Position numbers and translations under genes: made by a program. A stretch of DNA of 64,000 nt from Rhizobium sp. 11515TR (lineage in GTDB: Bacteria; Pseudomonadota; Alphaproteobacteria; Rhizobiales; Rhizobiaceae): positions 1,407,501-1,471,500 of the forward strand of contig NZ_CP022998.1 of the NCBI RefSeq assembly GCF_002277895.1, given 5' to 3'. The stretch's first letter is position 1; every line of letters starts with the position of its first letter. The notes under the pieces were generated by a model. It saw only the letters and a program-made list of their open reading frames with translations, was not told the origin of the DNA and made no database searches. Below are positions 12,992-24,523 of this stretch, piece after piece.

Positions 12992-14524
12992 AATGAAGAG
13001 CGCGACCATAACCCAATATACGGCGGCGGCAAGCAGGGCAGCGACCGGCACGGTGATCGCCCAGGCGGCGATGATGGTCATGAAATGCGAGCGGCGCACG
13101 AGCCGGCGGCGATGAACCTCATCAGGATTGCGCTCATCAGCAGTCTCCGGCTCTTGCCAGGGTACGCCCGCCGCCTCGGCCTTCTTGCGCATATAGTCAA
13201 ATCGCCGCCTGGAACGGACGGTGGACCACTCGCGAAAGAAGCCGACGCCGAAGACCGCGCCAACGGTAATGTGGGTCGAGCTCACCGGGAAACCGAACCA
13301 GGCGGCGACGATGACGGTGAGGGCCGCAGACACGGCGACGCAATAGGCACGCATCGGATTGAGCTTGGTGATCTGTTCGCCAAGCAGGCGGATGAGTCGC
13401 GGCCCATAGAGCAGAACGCCAACGGAGATGCCGCAGCCGCCGATCATGACGACCCAGAAGGGCGCCTTCTGCGTGGTTGTCTCGGCCAGCACGGTGAGCG
13501 AGCCGCCAAGCCCGATATCGCGAACGATCGCGGCGAGGGGGCCGATGGCGTTGGCGACGTCGTTGGCGCCATGCGCGAAGGACATCAGGGCTGCCGAACA
13601 GATCAGCGGCAGGCGGAAAAGCTTGCGCAATGAGCTGTTCTTGTTTTCCAATCCCGCCGATTGCGCCGCCACAAGCGGCCATGCGCCGAGCCAGGCGATG
13701 ATGCCGACACTGAGGCCGATCGCAAGATTGAGGATATTGGGTATCGTACCTTTGGGTTCGAGCTGGACCACGAGATAGCCCGAGAAGGCGCCGGCCATCA
13801 GTCCGATCAGGATCGGAATCCAATATCTGGCGGCGGCAATCTTGTCGTCGCGATAGATGATGAAGGTCTCTATGAAGTAGAGGATGCTGGCCGCGATGGT
13901 GCCGCCGAGAAAGGGTGTTATCACCCAGCCGGCCGAGATGGCCGCCAGCGTGTTCCAGTTCACCAGTTCCGGGCCGACGGCGGCAAAGCCTGCACCCACG
14001 ACGGCGCCGACGATCGTATGGGTAGTCGAGACGGGGGCTTTCAGCCAGGTGGCGAAATTGATCCAGAGTGCTGCGGCAAGCAGGGCCGCCATCATCAGCC
14101 AGGCAAGTTTGCCGATGCTGACGATGCGATTGGTGTCGACGATATGCGTCGAGATCGTATTGATGACGGGGCCGCCGGCAATCGTCGCGCCGAGGATCTC
14201 GAAGATGGCGGCCATGACGAGGGCCTGCGTCATAGTGATCGCACGCGCACCGACCGCCGCGCCGACATTGTTGGCGACGTCTTTCGCGCCGATGTTCATG
14301 GCCATGTAGCCGGCAAGGGCTACGGCGGCAAAGATCAGCATCGCGCGCGGCTGGTCGAAAACGTAGATGCCGGCGAAGACCATGGCGAGACCGAGGAAGA
14401 TCAGGCCGATACCCGGCGCCACCAGACGCCTCGTGACGTGATGCGTCGCGTCCTCGACATAGGTGAATTTGTCGAGGTCCTTGTCGAGCGTCCTTTTTAC
14501 AGGTGTGGCCGGTCGGTCGGGCAT
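12989..14524 (-). CDS. PiT-family inorganic phosphate transporter
   Basis: A 511-residue inner-membrane transporter of the PiT family, which moves metal-phosphate or phosphate with a cation. The duplicated family signature is clear: NIGAKDVANNVGAAVG in the N-terminal half and SFAHGANDVANAIGP in the C-terminal half. About eleven hydrophobic segments are present, and the N-terminal 45 residues are hydrophilic. ATG 14524 (MPDRPATP) follows AGAGAATTGC and is preferred to an in-frame start 22 codons upstream. No DUF47/PhoU-like partner gene lies next to it, unlike the orfA-pit arrangement. Confidence 0.92.
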   Translation of the reverse strand: MPDRPATPVKRTLDKDLDKFTYVEDATHHVTRRLVAPGIGLIFLGLAMVFAGIYVFDQPRAMLIFAAVALAGYMAMNIGAKDVANNVGAAVGARAITMTQALVMAAIFEILGATIAGGPVINTISTHIVDTNRIVSIGKLAWLMMAALLAAALWINFATWLKAPVSTTHTIVGAVVGAGFAAVGPELVNWNTLAAISAGWVITPFLGGTIAASILYFIETFIIYRDDKIAAARYWIPILIGLMAGAFSGYLVVQLEPKGTIPNILNLAIGLSVGIIAWLGAWPLVAAQSAGLENKNSSLRKLFRLPLICSAALMSFAHGANDVANAIGPLAAIVRDIGLGGSLTVLAETTTQKAPFWVVMIGGCGISVGVLLYGPRLIRLLGEQITKLNPMRAYCVAVSAALTVIVAAWFGFPVSSTHITVGAVFGVGFFREWSTVRSRRRFDYMRKKAEAAGVPWQEPETADERNPDEVHRRRLVRRSHFMTIIAAWAITVPVAALLAAAVYWVMVALFI

Positions 14525-14620
14525 GCAATTCTCTAGATCAAAACTCTCGTATTGCGCTGACCGATAAGGCTCGCAATATCTACCGAGCATACTGGCACAG
14601 TTTTTTGTGAGTAATGTGGC

Positions 14621-15130
14621 TTACTCGCCCTGCGAAACCACCGGAGCGGCCGGCATCCGGCGCGGGAAGGCGAGAATGAGATCGCGCAGTTCCGGTTCGC
14701 GAACGCGTTCGGCTGCTTCCTCGAAGGAGACCCACTCCATGGAGCGCTCGCCCTTTTCCTTGAAGTTCTTGACGAGTTCGCTGACTTCGAGGGCATACAC
14801 CTGCACGCGGCATGGCACCTGGATGCCGTCCTTCAGCACCTTGTCGTAGCCGAACGAGCCGAGCGGCTCAGTTTCCACCACGCCGCGCACGCCTGCCTCT
14901 TCATAGGCTTCGCGGGCAGCGACTTCATGGGAGAGCTTGCCGGGCATAGGCCATCCCTTGGGGATGACCCAGCGACCGGTGTCACGGCTGGTCAGCAACA
15001 ACATCTCAAGATGACCGGTTTTCTTTTTCACCCGATAACAAAGCGCAGCATATTGCTGTCGCGGCGGACGCCGAAACATGAGTTGCACATCATTTGCTAT
15101 GCGGCTGAGAAAGGCCAATTGTCGGTTCAC
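14621..15130 (-). CDS. Nudix hydrolase
   Basis: A 169-residue pyrophosphohydrolase, probably cytoplasmic. The Nudix box G-x5-E-x7-RE-x2-EE-x-G is intact as GKLSHEVAAREAYEEAGV near residues 63-80, and WVIPKGWP precedes it. Such proteins cleave nucleoside diphosphates linked to other groups; the size and the upstream KxG pattern resemble diphosphoinositol/diadenosine polyphosphate-type enzymes, but that is only a guess. The start is GTG 15130 (MNRQLAF); an ATG at 15076 is a possible alternative, and neither has a strong ribosome-binding site. Confidence 0.88.
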   Translation of the reverse strand: MNRQLAFLSRIANDVQLMFRRPPRQQYAALCYRVKKKTGHLEMLLLTSRDTGRWVIPKGWPMPGKLSHEVAAREAYEEAGVRGVVETEPLGSFGYDKVLKDGIQVPCRVQVYALEVSELVKNFKEKGERSMEWVSFEEAAERVREPELRDLILAFPRRMPAAPVVSQGE

Positions 15131-15191
15131 CTTTGAGAGTTGGAGTGAAGGCTGGAATCTATATTATCACGGTGCGGAAAATTTTTGCGCT

Positions 15192-15209
15192 CCATATAAG
15201 GCTATATGG
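15192..15209. promoter_or_regulatory. Dyad in the Nudix/LysR divergent gap
   Basis: CCATATA-AGGC-TATATGG has perfect 7-nt arms in an AT-rich intergenic region, 62 bp before the Nudix start and 172 bp before the LysR start. It could be an operator; the spacing is T-N10-A rather than T-N11-A. The remainder of 15131-15380 shows no gene. Confidence 0.35.
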
Positions 15210-15380
15210 TATTTCCCCACAAAATTATTGAGTGTTGCGTAGATAAAAATGCAAAGATTTGTCTTCTGATATTCGCCAGCGATTATGCTGAAACCGACAT
15301 TCAACAGCATTTTCGTGCCGCAGGTGGCGCAATCGCATGGATCTGGCTGCTATCGTTTGGAAAGAAAGAAAAAACTTATT

Positions 15381-16289
15381 ATGTCCGGACGCATCCCGCC
15401 TCGACGCCTGCCGCCCTTGAATGCGCTGCGTGCCTTCGATGCGGTTGCGCGCTGCGGTAGCATCCTGAAGGCGGCCGATGAGCTTGGCGTCGTGCGCGGG
15501 GCCATCAGGCAGCAGCTGAACCTACTGGAGGTACATTTTGGCGTACCCCTGTTCGACCGGGAGAATGGCCGGCTGGTGCTGACAGCGAAGGGCCGGGCAT
15601 TCGCCGATTCCGTTGGCGTCGCCTTTGGCATCCTGACACGGGCCTCCGCCGAACTTTCCGTCGGCGAACGGCCGTCGATCCGGCTCGGCGTTCCCTCGGC
15701 CTTTGCCGTCTGGTGGCTGATGCCGCGCGTCGCCACGCTTCAGACGGCGCTTCAGGATATCGATATCGACATCGTACCGATGGCAATCGTTGAGCCGCTT
15801 GCCAAGCGCGCCGACCTAGAAGCGGTCATCATGGGCGGCGAATACCGGCCGATGCGCGATATCACGGCCATTCGTTTCATGGAGGATGAGTTCGGCCCCG
15901 TCGCAACACCCGACGTCGCCGATCGCCTCGGGCTTGCCAATGGTGTTCCGGCGCTTGCCGGAGCCGTTGCCCTTGCAAGCCGTTCCGCCCCGAGCCTGTG
16001 GGAGGATTGGTTTGCCGAAAGCGGCCATGCCCCCATCCGCTTTGCCGGCAATCGCGAATTCGAAGACCTGCTGCTTGCGATCGGCGCTGCCCGCTCGGGC
16101 CTCGGCGTCGCCATCGCCCCACGCACCGCCATTGGCGAGGAAATCGATCGCGGTACTCTGGTCGCTCCCTTCGGCTTTATCCGGAGGCCGGCGGGCTACA
16201 GCCTCAGCATTCGCAGCAGCGACGTGAAGGACCCGGCGTTGGTACGATTGGCGGATTGGCTAAGCGAGGCAGGGGCCGAACCGGCTTAG
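15381..16289 (+). CDS. LysR-family regulator, GcvA-like
   Basis: A 302-residue LysR regulator. LPPLNALRAFDAVARCGSI opens the winged helix, with LKAADELGVVRGAIRQQLNLLE as recognition region; this opening is typical of the GcvA-like subgroup. ATG 15381 after GGAAAGAAAG gives the standard start; 32 further codons upstream are open but unlike the family. The effector domain begins near residue 90. It is transcribed in the same direction as the adenosylhomocysteinase-like gene 127 bp downstream, which is its most obvious target. Confidence 0.9.
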   Translation: MSGRIPPRRLPPLNALRAFDAVARCGSILKAADELGVVRGAIRQQLNLLEVHFGVPLFDRENGRLVLTAKGRAFADSVGVAFGILTRASAELSVGERPSIRLGVPSAFAVWWLMPRVATLQTALQDIDIDIVPMAIVEPLAKRADLEAVIMGGEYRPMRDITAIRFMEDEFGPVATPDVADRLGLANGVPALAGAVALASRSAPSLWEDWFAESGHAPIRFAGNREFEDLLLAIGAARSGLGVAIAPRTAIGEEIDRGTLVAPFGFIRRPAGYSLSIRSSDVKDPALVRLADWLSEAGAEPA

Positions 16290-16315
16290 CAAAACATCAA
16301 AACGAAGCGCATTGA

Positions 16316-16336
16316 CATGGCAGATTTTCTGCCATG
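16316..16336. promoter_or_regulatory. Perfect palindrome before the SAHH-like gene
   Basis: The 9-nt arms CATGGCAGA and TCTGCCATG are perfect complements around TTT. It lies 26 bp after the LysR stop and 80 bp before the SAHH-like start. There is no T-run, so an operator is more likely than a terminator. The octamer GCGCATTG flanks it on both sides (16308-16315 and 16339-16346). Confidence 0.5.
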
Positions 16337-16416
16337 CAGCGCATTGCAATGTCCATCGACACCTCCTTTGCGATCATGCCAGATCGCGGCATCGAACCAA
16401 CCGGCAGGAGCGCATC

Positions 16417-17580
16417 ATGGATCAGCCTTCTTCTCTTTCGCGTATCGACTGGGTGGCGCGCAGCTGTCGTCTGCTGGCGGCCACAGCAGCGGAATTTCGC
16501 GACACAATACCCTTTGCCGGCCTCACAATCGGCACCGGCATTCACCTCGAGCCAAAGACCGTTGCGCTGCTGATGACGCTGCGTGCCGGCGGCGCGGATC
16601 TCGTCTGCACCGGCAATCTCAACAGCACCCAGCCGGAAACGGTGGGCTATCTGCGCGCTCAGGGGATCAAGGTCTTTGCGACACAGACCCGCGACGCGGA
16701 GAAGCATGGTGCGAGCCTCGATGCGATCCTGGCGGAAAAGCCGGACCTGCTGCTCGACAATGGCGGCGATCTCTTCGCTCGCGCGGCCGGCAGGCCCTAT
16801 GCCAATCTGCTTGGCGGCACCGAGGAAACCACATCCGGCCGCACCCGGCTGATGCCGATGCGCGACAAGCTCAACATGCCGATCCTCGTCATCAATGACA
16901 GCCCGATCAAGCAGTTCGCCGAAAACCGGCATGCCGTCGGGCAAAGCCTATTCGAGAGCTATCTGCGCTTCACCAACCGCTCCACCAATGGCAAACATGT
17001 GACCGTCTTCGGCTACGGCGCCTGTGGCAAGGGCACGGCTACATGCTTCCGCAATGCATTCTCCACCGTCAGCGTCGTCGATATCGATCCGGTCACGACG
17101 CTTGAAGCACATCTCGACGGCTTCTCGACGCCGCTGCGTGAATCGGCGATCCGCTCCGCCGATATCTTGATCACTGTGACAGGCTATCCAGACATCATCA
17201 CGGCTGCTGATCTGCCCTTGATCAAGGACGGCGCGATCCTGATGAACGGCGGCCACTTCCCGCATGAGATCGATGTCGAAGGTTTCCGCGACAGTCCCGA
17301 TGTCGTCGGCGTCGATCGGTACGAAGCTGAGCAGATCGAGACCGTCCGCATTCGAGATGGCCGTGCCTTCCACATTCTCGGCGGCGGTCACATGGCCAAT
17401 CTGGCCGGTCCGCGCCCGCTGGGGAATACTGTCGAATCCATGGATCTCGGCTTTGCCCTGCAGGCGCGATGCCTGGAGAGGGTCGCCAAGGGCAGCCTCG
17501 GCAAGGAGGCCTGCGTCATCCCCGTTCCCACGGACATCGATGCGCTGGTCGCCTCCGCCTATCTCGATCTGGCGCGATAG
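16417..17580 (+). CDS. Divergent adenosylhomocysteinase-like protein
   Basis: A 387-residue homologue of S-adenosylhomocysteine hydrolase. Family elements that I can align: IGTGIHLEPKT (His), CTGNLNSTQPE (in place of NPLSTQD), LLLDNGGDL (Asp), GGTEETTSGRTRL (Glu), INDSPIKQFAEN (Lys, Asn; the usual Asp is Glu) and the NAD-binding FGYGACGKGTA. It ends at DALVASAYLDLAR and lacks the C-terminal Lys/Tyr tail (KPDHYRY) that closes the NAD site of the neighbouring subunit in true AhcY. AGGAG precedes ATG 16417. It is therefore probably not the housekeeping enzyme; it might act on a related nucleoside thioether or have another role. Confidence 0.75.
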   Translation: MDQPSSLSRIDWVARSCRLLAATAAEFRDTIPFAGLTIGTGIHLEPKTVALLMTLRAGGADLVCTGNLNSTQPETVGYLRAQGIKVFATQTRDAEKHGASLDAILAEKPDLLLDNGGDLFARAAGRPYANLLGGTEETTSGRTRLMPMRDKLNMPILVINDSPIKQFAENRHAVGQSLFESYLRFTNRSTNGKHVTVFGYGACGKGTATCFRNAFSTVSVVDIDPVTTLEAHLDGFSTPLRESAIRSADILITVTGYPDIITAADLPLIKDGAILMNGGHFPHEIDVEGFRDSPDVVGVDRYEAEQIETVRIRDGRAFHILGGGHMANLAGPRPLGNTVESMDLGFALQARCLERVAKGSLGKEACVIPVPTDIDALVASAYLDLAR

Positions 17581-17583
17581 GCA

Positions 17584-18147
17584 TCAGGCTCCGGACAGCG
17601 CCTGCGGCAGCAATCGGACGTAGAGTGCGGCCATCTCGTCGCCGAAGCAGCAGAAGATGATCTCATCGAAGGCGCCATCCTTGCTTTCGGCAAGGCTAGT
17701 GCGGATCGCGATCCTCGCCGCCTGCTCGGCGGGAAAGCGATAGACGCCGGTGGAAATGGCAGGAAAGGCGATGGTATTCAGATCGTGTTGCCGGGCAAGG
17801 TTGAGGCTGTTGCGATAGCAGTCGGCAAGCAGCTCTTCTTCGCCATGGTTTCCGCCATTCCAGACGGGGCCAACCGTATGGATTACATGTTTTGCCGGCA
17901 GGCGATATCCGCCCGTTATCTTTGCCTGCCCGGTCTTGCAACCATTCAGCGTCCGGCATTCCGCCAGGAGATCCGGCCCGGCGGTGCGATGGATTGCCCC
18001 GTCCACGCCACCGCCGCCGAGCAGGCTGCTATTGGCCGCATTGACGATCGCATCGACCTTGAGCGTCGTGATATCGCCAAGCGTCACGGTGAAGCGGGTC
18101 TTCGAATTCGGAGCGAGATCGGAACGGATGGTCTCAAGTGCGGACAT
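17584..18147 (-). CDS. Macro-domain protein (O-acetyl-ADP-ribose deacetylase-like)
   Basis: A 187-residue single macro domain. Features: [31 protein letters not shown] (binding of the ADP-ribose, with the Asn-Gly pattern in [15 protein letters not shown]), [11 protein letters not shown] and [13 protein letters not shown] for the pyrophosphate loop. Such proteins remove ADP-ribose from proteins or deacetylate O-acetyl-ADP-ribose. GAGGAGACCGTCATC precedes ATG 18147. It converges on the SAHH-like gene with 3 bp between stops. Confidence 0.92.
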
Positions 18148-18178
18148 GATGACGGTCTCCTCAAGCCTCCAGGTGGCT

Positions 18179-19075
18179 CTATCGCTCCCAATAGGGAACA
18201 GGGCCGTAAAGTTCCGCGAGAAAATCGATGAAGACGCGCACTTTCGCCGGCAGGAACTGCCGGCTGGGGTAAACGGCCGACAACGTCACATTGTGCGATC
18301 CTTCATAGGCCGGCAGCACCTGAACGAGGCGGCCGTCCCGCAATTCCCCCCCGATATCCCAGGTCGAGCGCAGCGCAATGCCGAGGCCGGCGATGACGGC
18401 TTCGCGCACGACCTCGCTGGAATTGGTGATGAGCCTGCCCTCGGGACGAAAGATCAGGCTGCCTTTCGGTCCCTCCAGCCGCCAGGGATCGAGATTATGC
18501 GCAGGTAGGCAGATATGCCGGCGCAGATCGTCGATATCCTCGGGCATGCCATGGGCGTCGATATAGGCAGGGGAGGCACAGAGCACGCGGCGTACTGGCG
18601 CGAGCCTGCGTGCGACAAGACTGGAATCCGTCAGTTCGGCAATGCGGATGGCAAGATCGAAGCCGCCGCCGACGATATCCACGAATTCGTCGCTGAGCAC
18701 GAGGTTGAGTGCCAGTTCGGGATGGGCCTGCATGAAGGATTTCAGATGCGGCGCGATGTGCAGGCGGCCGAAGGAGGTTGGGGCCGAGATTTTCAGCGTG
18801 CCGTGCATCTGCGAGGAGCGGCCGGCAATATAGGCTTCCGCCTCTTCCAGCCCGGCGAGAATGGCAAGCACGCGGTCGTAGAAGCCCTGGCCCGCTTCCG
18901 TCAGCGAAATCTGCCGCGTCGTGCGCTGCAGGAGCCGTGTGCCGAGCCTGTCTTCCAGGCGCTTGATGCGCTTCGAAATGACGGCGGGCGAAAAACCGAG
19001 AGCACGGCCCGTCAGCGACATGCTACCGGTCGCGACGACGCTGGCGAAGATCTCGAGATCTCCTAAATTGGTCAT
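18179..19075 (-). CDS. LysR-family regulator next to glcDEF
   Basis: A 298-residue LysR regulator of the CrgA/AaeR-like subgroup: [21 protein letters not shown] opens the protein and [20 protein letters not shown] is the recognition helix region. The effector domain begins near residue 93 ([20 protein letters not shown]). It is divergent from glcD across 119 bp that contain a dyad (19098-19109), so control of glycolate oxidation is the natural inference. E. coli uses the GntR-type GlcC for this job. Confidence 0.88.
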
Positions 19076-19097
19076 GCAGAATTGTTCCTGTTTTGGA

Positions 19098-19109
19098 ATA
19101 AGTGCTTAT
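19098..19109. promoter_or_regulatory. Candidate operator in the LysR/glcD gap
   Basis: ATAAGTGCTTAT is a near-perfect dyad centred 22 to 34 bp before the LysR start and 86 bp before the glcD start; TTGGA and TCCAA flank it as a wider inverted repeat (about 19093-19120). No experimental basis; offered because LysR regulators normally bind in such gaps. Confidence 0.4.
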
Positions 19110-19194
19110 CATTTGCTCCAAACTTGGGAAAGCGCTAAGCCTGTAATGCGCTAAAAGGGGCTGTATCCGCAAAGGGATGCAGGAGGAGGACGGC

Positions 19195-20634
19195 ATGGCC
19201 GAGGCCATTTCATTTCTGGAGCCGCGTGCGGATGTTCTGGCTCGCCGCAGCGCGATCGTTGCCGATCTAGCCGATCTTCTCGCGCCGGAATGCCTGATCC
19301 ACGAGCCGCGCGAACTCGTACCCTTCGAAACCGATGCCTTCGTCTCCTATCGCCGCCTGCCGCTTGCCGTCGCTCTGCCGCGCTCGACGGCGGAAGTGGC
19401 AGCCGTCATGAAATATTGCCATCGCTACGGCATTCCCGTCGTGCCGCGCGGCGCCGGCACTTCGCTCTCCGGCGGCGCGATACCGCAGGAAGATGCCGTC
19501 GTCCTCGGCCTCTCCAAGATGAACCGCATCCTCGATATCGATTATGCCAACCGCACCGCGACGGTGCAGGCGGGTGTGACGAACCTCCATGTCTCCGAAA
19601 GTGTTTCGGCCGACGGCTTCTTTTATGCACCCGACCCGAGTTCGCAGCTTGCCTGCACCATCGGCGGCAATATCGGCATGAATTCTGGCGGCGCCCACTG
19701 TCTGAAATACGGTGTCACGACGAACAATCTGCTCGGCGTCAAGCTTGTCCTCACCGACGGCACCATCATCGATCTCGGCGGCAAGGCACTGGATGCGGCG
19801 GGCTACGATCTGCTCGGTCTCGTCTGCGGCTCCGAAGGTCAGCTCGGCATCGTTACCGAGGCGACGGTGCGGCTCATCGCCAAGCCGGAAGGCGCCCGGC
19901 CGGTGCTCTTCGGCTTCGACAGTTCCGAGGAGGCCGGCGCCTGTGTGGCCGATGTGATTGCCGCCGGCATCGTGCCCGTCGCGATCGAATTCATGGACAA
20001 GCCGGCAATCGAAATCTGTGAAGCTTTTGCCAAAGCCGGCTATCCCCTCGATGTAGGGGCCTTGCTGATCGTCGAGGTTGAAGGTTCGGAGGCTGAAATG
20101 GATGATATGCTGGCTAGCATCGTCGCCATCGCCCGTACTCATAAGGTCAAGACGGTGCGCGAATGCCAGTCGGCAACCGAGGCGGCCCTGATCTGGAAGG
20201 GCCGGAAATCCGCCTTCGGCGCCACTGGCCGCATCGCCGATTATATTTGCATGGACGGCACCGTGCCGCTCAGCCAGCTTTCCTATGTGCTGCAGAAGAC
20301 GACGGAGATTGTCGATCGCTATGGCCTGCGCGTCGCCAATGTTTTCCATGCAGGCGATGGCAACATGCATCCACTGATCCTCTTCAATGCCAACGACCCC
20401 GATGAGGCGGCCAAGGCGGAAGCGGCCGGCAATGATATCCTGCGGCTCTGTGTCGATGCCGGCGGTTGCCTCACAGGCGAGCACGGTGTGGGCATCGAGA
20501 AGCGCGACCTGATGCGGCACCAATATGCCGATGTCGATCTCGCCCAGATGATGTCGGTGCGCGGGGCCTTCGATCCCGGCTGGATCCTCAATCCTTCCAA
20601 AGTCTTCCCGCTCGACGGACGCAACGCCGCATGA
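19195..20634 (+). CDS. glcD: Glycolate oxidase FAD-linked subunit
   Basis: Catalytic flavoprotein subunit of glycolate dehydrogenase, which oxidises glycolate to glyoxylate at the membrane side. The 479-residue protein has the FAD-binding PCMH domain (VPRGAGTSLSGGAIPQEDAVV, then GGNIGMNSGGAHCLKYGVT) and the C-terminal FAD-oxidase domain ending HAGDGNMHPLILF and GGCLTGEHGVGIEKR. AGGAGGAGG lies 5 nt before ATG 19195, so this is preferred to an ATG at 19177. Its stop overlaps the glcE start (ATGA), so the subunits are translationally coupled. Confidence 0.95.
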   Translation: MAEAISFLEPRADVLARRSAIVADLADLLAPECLIHEPRELVPFETDAFVSYRRLPLAVALPRSTAEVAAVMKYCHRYGIPVVPRGAGTSLSGGAIPQEDAVVLGLSKMNRILDIDYANRTATVQAGVTNLHVSESVSADGFFYAPDPSSQLACTIGGNIGMNSGGAHCLKYGVTTNNLLGVKLVLTDGTIIDLGGKALDAAGYDLLGLVCGSEGQLGIVTEATVRLIAKPEGARPVLFGFDSSEEAGACVADVIAAGIVPVAIEFMDKPAIEICEAFAKAGYPLDVGALLIVEVEGSEAEMDDMLASIVAIARTHKVKTVRECQSATEAALIWKGRKSAFGATGRIADYICMDGTVPLSQLSYVLQKTTEIVDRYGLRVANVFHAGDGNMHPLILFNANDPDEAAKAEAAGNDILRLCVDAGGCLTGEHGVGIEKRDLMRHQYADVDLAQMMSVRGAFDPGWILNPSKVFPLDGRNAA

Positions 20635-21830
20635 CCGAATTTCGTCCCAGGACCGAGGAGGAAGCCGCCTCAATCATCGGCGATCATGCGACACGCGGCG
20701 CGGCTCTCGCGATCGTCGGCGGCAATACGCGATCCGGCTTCGGCAACGCGGTGGCGTCCGAAGCGGTGCTCTCGTCACGTGGCCTGACCGGCATTGTCGC
20801 CTACAATCCGGGTGAGATGGTGATGACGGTCCGCGCCGGCACGCCGGCGGCCGAGATCGAGGCCGCTCTTGCTGAGGCCGGCCAGATGATGGCCTTCGAG
20901 CCCATGGATCATAGGCCGCTGATGACGACCGAAGGCGAGCCGACGATCGGCGGTATTTTTGCAGCTAACGTCTCAGGCCCGCGCCGTTTCGTCAGCGGTG
21001 CCGCGCGCGACAGCCTGCTCGGCGTCCGCTTCGTCAACGGCAGGGGTGAGATCGTCAAGGCCGGCGGGCGGGTGATGAAGAACGTCACTGGTCTCGATCT
21101 GGTCAAGCTGATGGCCGGCTCACACGGTACGCTCGGCCTGTTGACGGAGGTGACATTCCGCGTACCGCCGAGGCCGAAGACGGAGGAAACGATCGTCGTC
21201 TCCGGCCTCAACGATGCGGAGGCGGCCAACGCGATGGCCGCGGCCATGGCTCTGCCGCTCGAAGTTTCGGGCGCCGCGCATCTACCCCTGACGGTCGCAT
21301 GGTCCTTCATCGACGGCACCATGCCGCCAGGGGAGGCGACGGTGCTGCGTATCGAGGGCCTTCCCGGCTCCGTCACGGTGAGGGCCGAAAAGCTGGCCGC
21401 AGCGATGGGTCGGCTCGGCTCCGTGAGGCGCCTTGAAGAGGATGTCAGCCGCAGGCTCTGGCGCGAGATCCGCAATGTGAAGCCTTATGCGGATGGCACG
21501 ATGCGTCCGATCTGGCGGGTATCCGTCGCCCCTAGCATAGGCCATCAGCTCGTTGCAGCTCTTCGCCTGGAGGAGGGCGTCGATGCCTATTACGATTGGC
21601 AGGGCGGGCTCGTCTGGATGCGCATGGAAGCCGAGCCCGAGGGCGACATGCTGAGGCGCTACATTCATGCGCTTGGCGGCGGGCACGCCACTTTGATGCG
21701 TGCCACCCCAGCCCACCGTGCAATGACGGCGGCCTTCCAGCCGCAACCCGAAGCGGTGGCGCTGCTGTCTGCGCGCGTGAAGGAAAAATTCGATCCGGCT
21801 GGGATTTTCAATCCGGGGAAGATGGGGTGA
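20631..21830 (+). CDS. glcE: Glycolate oxidase FAD-binding subunit
   Basis: Second flavin subunit of glycolate oxidase, 399 residues. It contains one PCMH-type FAD-binding half-domain (ALAIVGGNTRSGFG, EGEPTIGGIFAANVSGPRRFVSG, MKNVTGLDLVKLMAGSHGTLG) and lacks most of the C-terminal catalytic domain of GlcD, as GlcE normally does. ATG 20631 overlaps the glcD stop by four bases. A REPIN-like repeat pair separates it from glcF. Confidence 0.94.
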   Translation: MTEFRPRTEEEAASIIGDHATRGAALAIVGGNTRSGFGNAVASEAVLSSRGLTGIVAYNPGEMVMTVRAGTPAAEIEAALAEAGQMMAFEPMDHRPLMTTEGEPTIGGIFAANVSGPRRFVSGAARDSLLGVRFVNGRGEIVKAGGRVMKNVTGLDLVKLMAGSHGTLGLLTEVTFRVPPRPKTEETIVVSGLNDAEAANAMAAAMALPLEVSGAAHLPLTVAWSFIDGTMPPGEATVLRIEGLPGSVTVRAEKLAAAMGRLGSVRRLEEDVSRRLWREIRNVKPYADGTMRPIWRVSVAPSIGHQLVAALRLEEGVDAYYDWQGGLVWMRMEAEPEGDMLRRYIHALGGGHATLMRATPAHRAMTAAFQPQPEAVALLSARVKEKFDPAGIFNPGKMG

Positions 21831-21855
21831 TGCGGATGGCATCTTTGGCTGGTTA

Positions 21856-22003
21856 CCCCCTCACCCTAGCCCTCTCCCCGCGGGGGAGAGGGGATGACCT
21901 TGTTTGCTGCGATTCCACGATTTTCTTTCCGGCAAGGGAAGAGGAAGATGAATTCCCCCTTCTCCCCTTGGGGAGAAGGTGCCCGACAGGGCGGATGAGG
22001 GGG
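21856..22003. repeat. REPIN-like inverted pair of REP elements between glcE and glcF
   Basis: Left unit 21856-21894 begins CCCCTCACCCTAGCCCTC and folds CCTCTCCCCG against CGGGGGAGAGG. Right unit 21955-22003 folds CCTTCTCCCC against GGGGAGAAGG and ends GGGCGGATGAGGGGG. The two units face each other in inverse orientation, the arrangement known as REPIN. A similar pair lies between hisS and hisZ. Confidence 0.85.
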
Positions 22004-22061
22004 CTAGACGGGATATGATGGGCGCCTTTGTTCTGGTAGGCAAGAATCGAGGGCTCGGCTG

Positions 22062-23381
22062 ATGCAAACCAATTTCACGCCCGAACAGCTTACCGATCCG
22101 CACGTGGCTGAATCAGAGGCGATCCTGCGCAAATGCGTGCATTGCGGCTTCTGCACCGCCACCTGTCCTACCTATGTGACGCTCGGCAATGAGCTCGACA
22201 GCCCGCGCGGCCGCATTTATCTCATTAAGGACATGCTGGAAAACGGCCGGGCCGCCGATGCCGAGGTGGTAACGCACATCGATCGCTGCCTGTCCTGCCT
22301 CGCCTGCACCACGACCTGTCCGTCCGGCGTAGACTATATGCATCTGGTCGATCACGCCCGCGCCCATATCGAGAATACCTACAAGCGCCCGCTGATGGAC
22401 CGGCTGACCCGCAATGTACTGGCAGCCGTGCTGCCCTATCCCAGCCGTTTCCGGCTGGCCTTGCGGCTTGCGAACTTTGGGCGACCGTTCAAGGGTCTGT
22501 TGAAGCGCATCCCGGCATTGAAGGCTTTCGCCGCCATGCTCGATCTCGCGCCACGCAGCATTCCCGCGCCGTCGCCCCTTGCAAAGCCGGGGCTGCATGT
22601 AGCGCAGGCCGAGCGGCGCGGTCGTGTGGCGATCCTGACGGGCTGCGCCCAGCTGGTGCTCGATCCCGAGATCAATGCGGCGACCATCCGCCTGCTGACG
22701 CGCCTCGGTGTCGAGGTTGTCGGACCGGAAGGGGAGGTCTGCTGCGGCTCGCTGGTTCATCATATGGGGCGCGAGGAACAGGCGCTTGCCGCCGCCCGCG
22801 CCAATGTCGATGTGTGGCTGCGCGAGATCGAGGCCGGAGGGCTCGACGCCATCATCATCACCGCGTCGGGCTGCGGCACGACGATCAAGGATTATGGCCA
22901 TATGCTGCGCCTCGATCCGGCCTATGCCGACAAGGCGGCAAGGGTCTCGGCGCTCGCCAAAGACATCACCGAATATCTCGCAGGTCTCGACCTTCCCTCG
23001 CATATGCCGCGTGGCATCGTAGTCGCCTATCATTCCGCCTGCTCCATGCAGCATGGGCAGAAGATTACTATGGCGCCGAAGCAGCTTTTGAAGGCGGCCG
23101 GTTTCACGGTGCGCGACCCGGCGGAGGGGCATCTCTGTTGCGGCTCGGCCGGCACCTACAACATCATGCAGCCGGAGATCTCGGCCGAGCTGAAAGCGCG
23201 CAAGGTCAGGAACATCGAGGCAACAAAGGCCGATATTATCGCCACAGGCAATATCGGCTGCATCACGCAGATCGCCACGGGAACCGGCATTCCCATTCTG
23301 CATACGGTGGAATTGCTGGATTGGGCCTATGGTGGCGAAATGCCCGCGAAACTGAAGGGCCTGCAACCGGCGGCTGCTTAG
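22062..23381 (+). CDS. glcF: Glycolate oxidase iron-sulfur subunit
   Basis: The 439-residue electron-transfer subunit. Two [4Fe-4S] ferredoxin motifs lie near residues 24-36 (CVHCGFCTATCPT) and 77-89 (CLSCLACTTTCPS). Two C-terminal cysteine-rich CCG domains follow (GEVCCGSLVHHMG; GHLCCGSAGTYN). It passes electrons from the flavins of GlcDE to quinone. It is separated from glcE by 231 bp that hold a REPIN-like element, but orientation and function place it in the same operon. Its TAG stop is provided by the arm of a palindrome. Confidence 0.95.
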   Translation: MQTNFTPEQLTDPHVAESEAILRKCVHCGFCTATCPTYVTLGNELDSPRGRIYLIKDMLENGRAADAEVVTHIDRCLSCLACTTTCPSGVDYMHLVDHARAHIENTYKRPLMDRLTRNVLAAVLPYPSRFRLALRLANFGRPFKGLLKRIPALKAFAAMLDLAPRSIPAPSPLAKPGLHVAQAERRGRVAILTGCAQLVLDPEINAATIRLLTRLGVEVVGPEGEVCCGSLVHHMGREEQALAAARANVDVWLREIEAGGLDAIIITASGCGTTIKDYGHMLRLDPAYADKAARVSALAKDITEYLAGLDLPSHMPRGIVVAYHSACSMQHGQKITMAPKQLLKAAGFTVRDPAEGHLCCGSAGTYNIMQPEISAELKARKVRNIEATKADIIATGNIGCITQIATGTGIPILHTVELLDWAYGGEMPAKLKGLQPAAA

Positions 23382-23432
23382 AGCAATTCCTGGAAAGTGC
23401 GCAGCGGTTTTCCGTCCGGAATTGCGCTCTAA
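23378..23432. repeat. TAGAGC-ended palindrome at the glcF 3' end
   Basis: TTAGAGCAATTCC (23378-23390) and GGAATTGCGCTCTAA (23418-23432) are complementary but for a few bases, with an inner GGAAAGTG/GGTTTTCC stem. The left TAG is the stop codon of glcF and the right CTA is, on the other strand, the TAG stop of the convergent gene. It probably also acts as a two-way transcription stop. Confidence 0.85.
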
Positions 23433-23776
23433 TGCAGTTTGTCCGGTGTGGGCAGGCGATGAGCCTGCCACTCGACTTCGAACCGGTCGGCGGCAATCTG
23501 CGTCATGCTGATGCGATCCTGCCCTTCTTCAAAGAATAGGCCATCGACCAGGCCGGCGATGCCGTCATAGAACGAGCCTTCGACAAGGCTGGTGAGCCGC
23601 CGCATCTCACGGCCCAATGCAGCATAGTCGGCAACCGACATGCAATGCCGGCGGCCGTCCGCGAACACGTCGATCAGTCGCGGAACATCGCCGTCGACAT
23701 CGACCTCGTAATAAACGATGACTGGCTCCTCGCTTTCCGGATGGATCCAGTCACATCGGTAGTAGAAAAAGCTCAT
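23429..23776 (-). CDS. Conserved hypothetical protein, possibly DUF6881-like
   Basis: A 115-residue soluble protein that I recognise only tentatively. Residues 1-50 (YYRCDWIHPESEEPVIVYYEVDVDGDVPRL, then IDVFADGRRH) have the strand-rich pattern, with a paired-acid turn and FADGR, of the DUF6881 group of small immunity-like proteins; this is from memory. The C-terminal half is helical. No signal peptide. It converges on glcF and takes its TAG stop from the shared palindrome. Function unknown. Confidence 0.65.
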   Translation of the reverse strand: MSFFYYRCDWIHPESEEPVIVYYEVDVDGDVPRLIDVFADGRRHCMSVADYAALGREMRRLTSLVEGSFYDGIAGLVDGLFFEEGQDRISMTQIAADRFEVEWQAHRLPTPDKLH

Positions 23777-23851
23777 GGCTGAAATATAGCACAGGATCCC
23801 CCAAGCCTGAACTGGTTTGAAGGATCGATTGCGACTTCAGCCGGAAGGGCG

Positions 23852-24523
23852 TCAGAAGTTGAACGAAACGCCAAAGTTGAGAGCGTGAGTGAAAACCCTG
23901 GTCTTCAGCGTATCGCCGCTGTCGATCGAGACATTGTTCACGAAGTTGTAGTTGCCCTTGTATTCGACGAAGGTCGACCAGTGCTTGGCGAACTGGTAGC
24001 TGACGCCCGCCTGCGCCTGCAGCGAAGCGCCGCCGAACTGGTAGTTGAAGGTCGTGCCGGAAGCGCGCGTGACTTCGACGTGCGGCACGTTGATGCCGGC
24101 GCCGAGACCGACATAGGGCGTCCAGTTGCGGCTCGGGTCCTGAAAGCGGTAGAGCGCATTCAGCGTCAGCATGTTCAGGCCATCGGTGAACTCGAAATGC
24201 GACCAGCCGGGCGTATTGCCGAGATCGCCATAGACCTTCGCATGGGTGTAGTCGAGCGACACGCCCCAGTTCGGCTTGTCGAACTGGTCAAGCCACCAGA
24301 TGCCGCGGAAGCCGAAATAGGGCGGCATCTTGAAGGATTTTCCGGACCAGTTGGGGTCGAAATCAGCGCCGTCCGACGTGGTCACATTGCTGCCTGTCGC
24401 GCCTTGTATGCCACCGTAAGCGGAAAATTGCATCTCCGCCGAGGCAGAGCTTGCGGCCAATATGAATGCGGAAGTCGCAAGCGCGGCGAATGCCGGCTGC
24501 TTGATGCGAAATGCACGATGCAT
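23852..24523 (-). CDS. Outer-membrane beta-barrel protein
   Basis: A 223-residue precursor with a signal peptide ending near ASSASA (residue 29). The mature part is an alternating-strand barrel: repeated aromatic-ended strands such as WGVSLDYTHAKVYG, LTLNALYRFQ, YVGLGAGINVPHVEV and the C-terminal LNFGVSFNF, ending in Phe as outer-membrane proteins do. It belongs to the OmpW/OmpA-like small-barrel group. The length is close to that of rhizobial lipid A oxidase LpxQ, a small barrel too, but I cannot confirm that identity. GGGGATTTCAT precedes ATG 24523. Confidence 0.8.
   Translation of the reverse strand: MHRAFRIKQPAFAALATSAFILAASSASAEMQFSAYGGIQGATGSNVTTSDGADFDPNWSGKSFKMPPYFGFRGIWWLDQFDKPNWGVSLDYTHAKVYGDLGNTPGWSHFEFTDGLNMLTLNALYRFQDPSRNWTPYVGLGAGINVPHVEVTRASGTTFNYQFGGASLQAQAGVSYQFAKHWSTFVEYKGNYNFVNNVSIDSGDTLKTRVFTHALNFGVSFNF

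Follow-up and report, generated by a model that had tools for sequence, protein, structure and literature searches.

An SAHH-like protein clade of Rhizobium with altered active-site residues and a linked LysR gene, a candidate for inducible nucleoside catabolism

The window analysed here, a stretch of 64,000 nucleotides from Rhizobium sp. 11515TR, carries a gene for a protein resembling S-adenosylhomocysteine hydrolase (SAHH), P0002 (16417..17580, + strand), which opens with an ATG at 16417 behind an AGGAG at 16406-16410, closes with a stop at 17580 and encodes 387 aa. An earlier note on this DNA had described an open frame on this strand ending at 17580 with the motifs NLNSTQPE and GYGACGKG, and both are present in the translation, together with HLEPKT, GGTEETTSG and INDSPIKQFAEN; the start given there, 16316, has to be moved, as positions 16316-16416 lie between genes and contain a conserved inverted repeat. 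P0002 belongs to the SAHH superfamily (PF05221 and PF00670), with both Pfam domains above their gathering scores (AdoHcyase_NAD, 103.4 bits against a cut-off of 27; AdoHcyase, 52.8 bits against 25), an SAHH fold and a place in the clade described below. It just passes the NCBIfam model NF004005 “adenosylhomocysteinase” (293.1 versus a cut-off of 275 bits) but falls below the cut-off in the four other NCBIfam models listed, among them TIGR00936 (AhcY; 259.5 versus 497.6 bits, short by 238). At another place in the source genome, which comprises 3 contigs and 7.07 Mb, lies an ordinary ahcY (G000:C1:627665-629044), so that the reservation that P0002 might be its only ahcY falls away. Converging on the P0002 gene from the opposite strand is a macro-domain gene (O-acetyl-ADP-ribose deacetylase-like, 17584-18147, − strand), a homologue of which sits at the same place in locus L061, while L099 and L133, the latter the locus of Rhizobium strain 3841, have a different gene there. 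No known RNA or riboswitch matched Rfam at the gathering threshold in 14000-24000, and no sigma-70-like promoter or terminator pattern was found in 15130-17700, where 0.8 and 2.4 were expected from shuffles.

Directly upstream lies P0001, a LysR regulator gene of the GcvA type (15381..16289, + strand; Pfam HTH_1 and LysR_substrate), whose reading frame stays open back to another ATG at 15285 and which scores 172 bits against the NCBIfam GcvA model, under its cut-off of 288. Between the two genes stands an unstranded, fully complementary inverted repeat, CATGGCAGA-TTT-TCTGCCATG (16316..16336), made of two 9-nt arms 3 nt apart, with its core GGCAGATTTTCTGCC at 16319-16333, of which the 7.07 Mb genome has a single exact copy. 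The 80 nearest loci used for comparison are named loci, the top-ranking 80 among 360 relatives. A P0001-type LysR gene was located upstream on the same strand within 600 bp in 67 of these 80, and the core at up to 3 mismatches within 450 bp upstream was likewise present in 67, versus 4 of 1600 mononucleotide-shuffled sequences. Both features were found at 65 loci, the LysR gene alone at 2, the repeat alone at 2 and neither at 11, so that the repeat accompanies 65/67 loci with the LysR gene versus 2/13 without it (Fisher p 5.5e-10, which overstates the evidence because the loci are related by descent). The repeat is thus a candidate operator, likely that of the P0001 LysR protein as predicted from this co-occurrence, and the earlier proposal that a specialised paralogue, controlled by a LysR gene of its own, exists alongside a normal ahcY is upheld, the link to the LysR gene being strengthened by a repeat that is mostly absent where this gene is absent. 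A wider LysR regulon in the genome was considered and rejected, the search yielding, beyond the exact copy, a single one-mismatch site on contig C2, by eye inside a coding region. Other sub-clades adjoin other regulators, namely LacI in 4/4 loci of one genus, IclR in 5/5 and another LysR in 7/7 Vibrionaceae; L149, L150, L152, L161, L164 and L195-L198 gave no match to the reference regulators searched, in a search that covered homologues of 16 reference neighbours and could miss other regulators. On the whole, the regulator pattern suggests that the substrate of the enzyme acts as its inducer.

The dN/dS of P0002 against six relatives is 0.06-0.22, its altered active-site residues are identical in 80/80 nearest loci, and the length from the aligned start is 387 aa in 71 of these loci, 385 in 6 and 389, 398 and 404 in one each. 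A sequencing error at the 3' end, which the earlier note had allowed for, is ruled out by these residues and lengths. A maximum-likelihood tree was built from 63 sequences, whose rows had beforehand been assigned to the family or outside it by residues; in it 32 members stand on one side of a branch and 31 other sequences on the other (support 97/87); the branch recurs in 98% of 200 bootstrap trees, and in this unrooted tree the clade is separate from both the ordinary AhcY and the archaeal-type SAHH sets, so that P0002 does not group within AhcY as had been feared. L150 and L157, although their genes are present, are not among the rows of the residue table and tree, nor is L045 (same genus as L155 and L158) among those of the final versions; two loci, L048 and L188, are partial, L170 is a duplicate of L162, and the gene calls at the relatives' loci are crude, with some starts too early. 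L168 (L168:9391-10506, genome G531), a very divergent SAHH-like protein with 29% identity and other residues (Met at 131, His at 190 and Asp at 353 in human SAHH numbering), was handled as an outgroup, and its branch is extremely long. That P0002 represents a distinct, selected and separately regulated clade is close to certain.

Within the genus Rhizobium the gene is found in 119/148 genomes, the source included, whereas beyond it the distribution is scattered, with several genomes of the order that belong to different genera and families, 2/385 in the class sample (one of them the source), 7/398 in the phylum sample (including the source and two of its genus), 7/150 in Vibrionaceae, the family of the Vibrio fortis genome, and 6/29, one partial, in another family of Alphaproteobacteria. 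When 25 member-bearing genomes were tested for an ordinary SAHH alongside, all 18 outside Vibrionaceae had one, and the 7/7 from Vibrionaceae showed no other convincing SAHH. The clade gene is an accessory gene. Some matches were discarded as ordinary archaeal-type SAHH, namely four viral loci from IMG/VR, each with Asp131, Asp190, His353 and an end segment, and 14 of the 15 gammaproteobacterial matches (all but Vibrio fortis). As a separate observation, a Rubrobacter radiotolerans plasmid (NZ_CP007516.1; L173:7962-9227) encodes an SAHH-like protein with His55 changed to Pro and His301 to Gly and with ordinary Asp131, Asp190 and His353.

The residues that set the clade apart lie in the active site and are given here in human SAHH numbering unless P0002 is named. 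Asn115 of P0002 (16759..16761, + strand) occupies the position of the C4' acid/base Asp131 and is Asn in 80/80 nearest loci and 32/32 diverse members; Glu169 (16921..16923, + strand) occupies that of Asp190, a 2'-OH contact, and is Glu in 32/32 and 80/80; and Asn337 (17425..17427, + strand) occupies that of His353 in the hinge and is Asn in 80/80 nearest loci and 31/32 diverse members, the exception being Asp in the Vibrio nigripulchritudo member. Cys195 is replaced by Val in both sets throughout (32/32 and 80/80), while His55, Glu156, Thr157, Lys186, Asn191, His301 and Asn346 are retained in 32/32 diverse members. P0002 thereby keeps 5/7 of the AhcY catalytic set (His55, Asp131, Glu156, Lys186, Asp190, Asn191, His301), with Asp131 changed to Asn and Asp190 to Glu; among the comparison proteins both aspartates are kept in 30/31, the exception being L168. 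The earlier note had called the active-site Asp positions recognisable with one Asp replaced by Glu; the replacement is real (Asp190 to Glu169), but the loss of the C4' Asp131 and of His353 had been overlooked. The cut-off of NF004005 (275 bits) lets in both P0002 (293) and the Vibrio nigripulchritudo member (323), neither of which has Asp131 or Asp190.

In the account of PMC4647836, the C4' proton of the SAHH reaction is delivered by Asp131, the 2'-OH is held by Glu156 and Asp190, the 3'-OH by Thr157 and Lys186, and the 5' position is handled by His55, Asp131 and His301. Set against these roles, the clade alignment keeps the residues that handle the 3'-OH and has lost the C4'-proton residue needed for C5' elimination; the loss of Asp131 argues against plain SAH hydrolysis. 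The base-reading motif HxExK (H43-x-E45-x-K47 in P0002) is present in 80/80 nearest loci and 32/32 diverse members; the same motif contacts the hypoxanthine of inosine in the SAHH of Pyrococcus furiosus and Methanococcus maripaludis, as described in PMC10978960, and by this motif the clade is of the predicted inosine-preferring type.

P0002 ends in ...VASAYLDLAR and lacks KPDHYRY, as the earlier note had observed. A tail of this type completes the NAD site of the neighbouring subunit in AhcY, but the use of the missing tail as a sign of altered function is a poor argument: archaeal-type SAHHs are described as lacking the last 8-11 tail residues (PMC7765604) and as active (PMC10978960), so the missing tail alone is unremarkable in P0002. 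The shortening itself is real and exceeds what had been supposed, with 14-24 residues past human position 390 in the clade versus 35-39 in 14 archaeal-type bacterial SAHHs (L204-L217), counts made on these bacterial proteins only, as the PDB segments used had been cut at that position. An end segment that is mostly IDTLTxEQxxYLSSWQEGT-like in the archaeal type is absent from the clade. The C-terminal domain of mouse SAHH is a helix-loop-helix according to PMC4647836, and the part missing from the clade would correspond to its second helix.

The AlphaFold model of P0002 is of moderate quality (mean pLDDT 74.2, pTM 0.62, hinge segments below 50) and was built on a shallow alignment of 54 sequences that are 78-98% identical to P0002; it confirms the fold only. 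The 50 Foldseek matches listed for the model are all SAHHs or SAHH-like, with TM-scores of 0.56-0.65 and an rmsd near 7, values that probably reflect the uncertain hinges.

Gene neighbourhoods offer a clue to function. On a Vibrio nigripulchritudo plasmid, the annotation gives a run of nucleoside hydrolase, adenosylhomocysteinase (the SAHH-like gene, whose product is a clade member in the tree), adenosine deaminase and ribokinase, in which neighbouring genes overlap or are separated by 3 bp; a DeoR gene on the opposite strand comes next and, further down, a NupC-type transporter. The deaminase and the transporter score above the cut-offs of their NCBIfam models, while the nucleoside hydrolase and ribokinase match their families below the equivalog cut-offs. 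Since the other genes of this run are already enough for adenosine itself, the SAHH-like protein presumably opens the pathway to a modified nucleoside, yielding inosine or similar. The Vibrio nigripulchritudo protein is the most divergent member (end branch 1.97; Asp at 353, Asp for Gln85, Leu at 302), and its pathway may therefore not transfer to Rhizobium. CNT nucleoside transporters adjoin the gene in L193 (same strand) and in L195 and L196 (divergent), which makes three lineages including Vibrio, and no nucleoside gene was seen beside the member in most of the neighbourhoods inspected, that of the window included, where the annotation of neighbours was partial. A Gfo/Idh/MocA oxidoreductase gene follows the SAHH-like gene at 3-12 bp in L174 and L175; in L164 the downstream homologue shows its C-terminal part alone in one frame, so that this copy may be broken or the gene call wrong. 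The Gfo/Idh/MocA family includes sugar 3-dehydrogenases, to one of which a weak match was obtained, and the adjacency is therefore suggestive only. A tandem pair of distant SAHH-like genes was also observed on a plasmid of Roseateles sp. XES5 (NZ_CP084754.1; L171:8947-11459), the second with His55 changed to Val and His301 to Gly; the pair adjoins a LacI gene and is co-directional with an ABC transporter, an amidohydrolase and a nucleoside hydrolase.

Taken together, we propose, with a probability of about one half, that P0002 is an accessory, inducible, NAD-dependent enzyme of nucleoside catabolism from the SAHH superfamily that makes a sugar-modified hypoxanthine nucleoside catabolisable. 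From the clade, its residues, the association of LysR gene and repeat, and the Vibrio gene run, all read from sequence, we infer the following course. The LysR protein would bind the intergenic inverted repeat and switch the enzyme on in response to a nucleoside-like inducer. The enzyme would retain a tightly bound NAD+, hold a hypoxanthine-type nucleoside through Glu45 and Lys47 of HxExK, and oxidise the sugar 3'-OH with the help of Lys165, Asn170, Glu137 and Thr138 (P0002 numbering). The resulting 3'-keto sugar could then be altered at an activated neighbouring position, a 5'-substituent being removed or a sugar centre corrected, and the reaction would run towards renewed reduction of the sugar to a plain ribonucleoside, e.g., inosine, for nucleoside hydrolase and ribokinase. 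The parts of this proposal differ in strength, in that P0002 is very probably an enzyme, probably acts by 3'-oxidation and somewhat probably works in nucleoside catabolism. A 5'-substituted (thio)nucleoside as its substrate is a tentative suggestion; an enzyme acting on another nucleoside thioether had been envisaged before and is still possible, but the clade-wide change of Asp131 to Asn removes the C4'-proton residue.

An activity so far undescribed on the SAHH fold would follow if P0002, having oxidised the 3'-OH, acted at C2' instead of C4'. It would then be either a nucleoside 2'-epimerase, converting for instance arabinosyl-hypoxanthine into its ribosyl counterpart, or a nucleosidase of oxidoreductive type that frees the base once the 3'-keto form has arisen, in an inducible catabolism of non-standard nucleosides in rhizobia and marine bacteria; this reading arises because Asp131 is Asn clade-wide and Asp190, beside the 2'-OH, is lengthened to Glu, and we regard such epimerisation or base release as unlikely. 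Several other readings compete with the proposal. One, improbable too, is a hydrolase of S-inosyl- or S-adenosylhomocysteine with ordinary chemistry, a second, inducible SAH-salvage enzyme in which Glu169 or water replaces Asp131. Its HxExK motif, as in the S-inosylhomocysteine-preferring enzymes of PMC10978960, the passing of NF004005 (293 versus 275 bits) and the closest solved relatives, which are Thermotoga and archaeal SAHH/SIHH, would all suit such a hydrolase, and the adenosine deaminase and nucleoside hydrolase of the Vibrio run would also fit a route from SAH through SIH to inosine. However, all members examined have Asn for the C4' proton donor Asp131 (PMC4647836), and an ordinary SAHH is already present in the 18/18 non-Vibrionaceae genomes tested. 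Two points of background weigh in the same direction: a CNT transporter is not expected to import an amino-acid-bearing nucleoside, and in work from 2002 attributed to Takata, the rat SAHH variant D130N reportedly had ~1% of normal kcat.

A non-catalytic NAD-binding sensor or partner protein, as AHCYL1 (IRBIT) may be in animals, possibly working with the LysR protein, would accord with two changed catalytic carboxylates, a shortened tail and a tightly linked regulator gene, and human SAHH-like proteins already offer examples of this fold lacking SAHH activity. The earlier note had offered a non-catalytic regulator as one of its options, and we consider it quite improbable, for the 3'-OH-handling residues together with His55 and His301 are invariant in 32/32 members, which a pure sensor need not retain, and the NAD loop is kept, while the adjoining regulator type varies by sub-clade (LysR, LacI, IclR, DeoR), which speaks against a fixed protein partner, and one member sits within a run of nucleoside-catabolic enzyme genes. 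At first sight, the missing tail and the changed residues might also mark a degenerating paralogue, a pseudogene in the making, and among the members of the genus Rhizobium there is an internal stop in G063 and there are shortened matches in G022 and G085. This reading is nonetheless strongly contradicted for Rhizobium by the dN/dS values and the active-site residues common to all 80 nearest loci, besides the retention of the upstream repeat together with the LysR gene, and it can be given hardly any weight.

What is already known is the SAHH fold and the existence of SAHH paralogues that act on other nucleosides (AgmF); the clade is a variant with a possible new activity, and no literature on it or on its residues was found among the openly licensed papers listed. 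Plasmid records with an annotated match (two of Vibrio nigripulchritudo, one of Vibrio fortis) all read “adenosylhomocysteinase.” Because both annotation and the passing of NF004005 give members this name, annotation-built models of methyl metabolism would credit them with a role that the active-site residues speak against. The clade also provides a natural set of the changes Asp131 to Asn, Asp190 to Glu and His353 to Asn for probing the SAHH scaffold beyond SAH, and, because the genome holds just one exact copy of the operator-like site, the inducer and thereby the substrate can be searched for directly.

Compared with the canonical AhcY of its own genome (L001; 33% identity), P0002 shares the fold, the NAD loop and several catalytic residues but differs in the insert, the KSDHYRY tail, HxTxQ, Asp131, Asp190 and His353, all of which L001 has. 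The animal proteins AHCYL1/IRBIT and AHCYL2 (3MTG, 3GVP), which have an SAHH-like fold without ordinary SAHH function, are matched by the P0002 model in Foldseek, and P0002 retains the NAD loop GYGACGKG. The best structural and sequence relatives are the archaeal-type SAHH/SIHH of Thermotoga maritima (5TOV/3X2E), Pyrococcus furiosus (7R37) and Methanococcus maripaludis (7R3A), and the closest solved relatives of the Vibrio fortis member are likewise Thermotoga and archaeal SAHH. Archaeal-type SAHH and the clade have in common the absence of the 40-residue insert and of KPDHYRY and the presence of HxExK, His55, Glu156, Lys186, Asn191 and His301, whereas the archaeal type keeps Asp131, Asp190, Thr195, His353 and an IDxLTxEQxxYLxSW-like end segment that the clade does not have, and the two form separate branches in the unrooted tree. 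AgmF, the angustmycin C dehydratase described in PMC8599513, is also an SAHH paralogue that has moved off SAH onto another nucleoside and recycles its own NAD+; it belongs to a biosynthetic cluster, a setting that P0002 does not share. Matched by residue role and not by alignment, its His56, Lys184 and His299 are the counterparts of His43, Lys165 and His280 of P0002, whereas the essential Asp129 and Asp188 correspond by position to Asn115 and Glu169, so that P0002 does not have the AgmF-type residue set as PMC8599513 describes it. Changing the matching aspartates of AgmF to Ala abolishes activity in that account (PMC8599513), and an enzyme without both may consequently have little of the usual activity. 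With AgmF, the P0002 clade would be a further case of the SAHH fold leaving SAH for other nucleosides.
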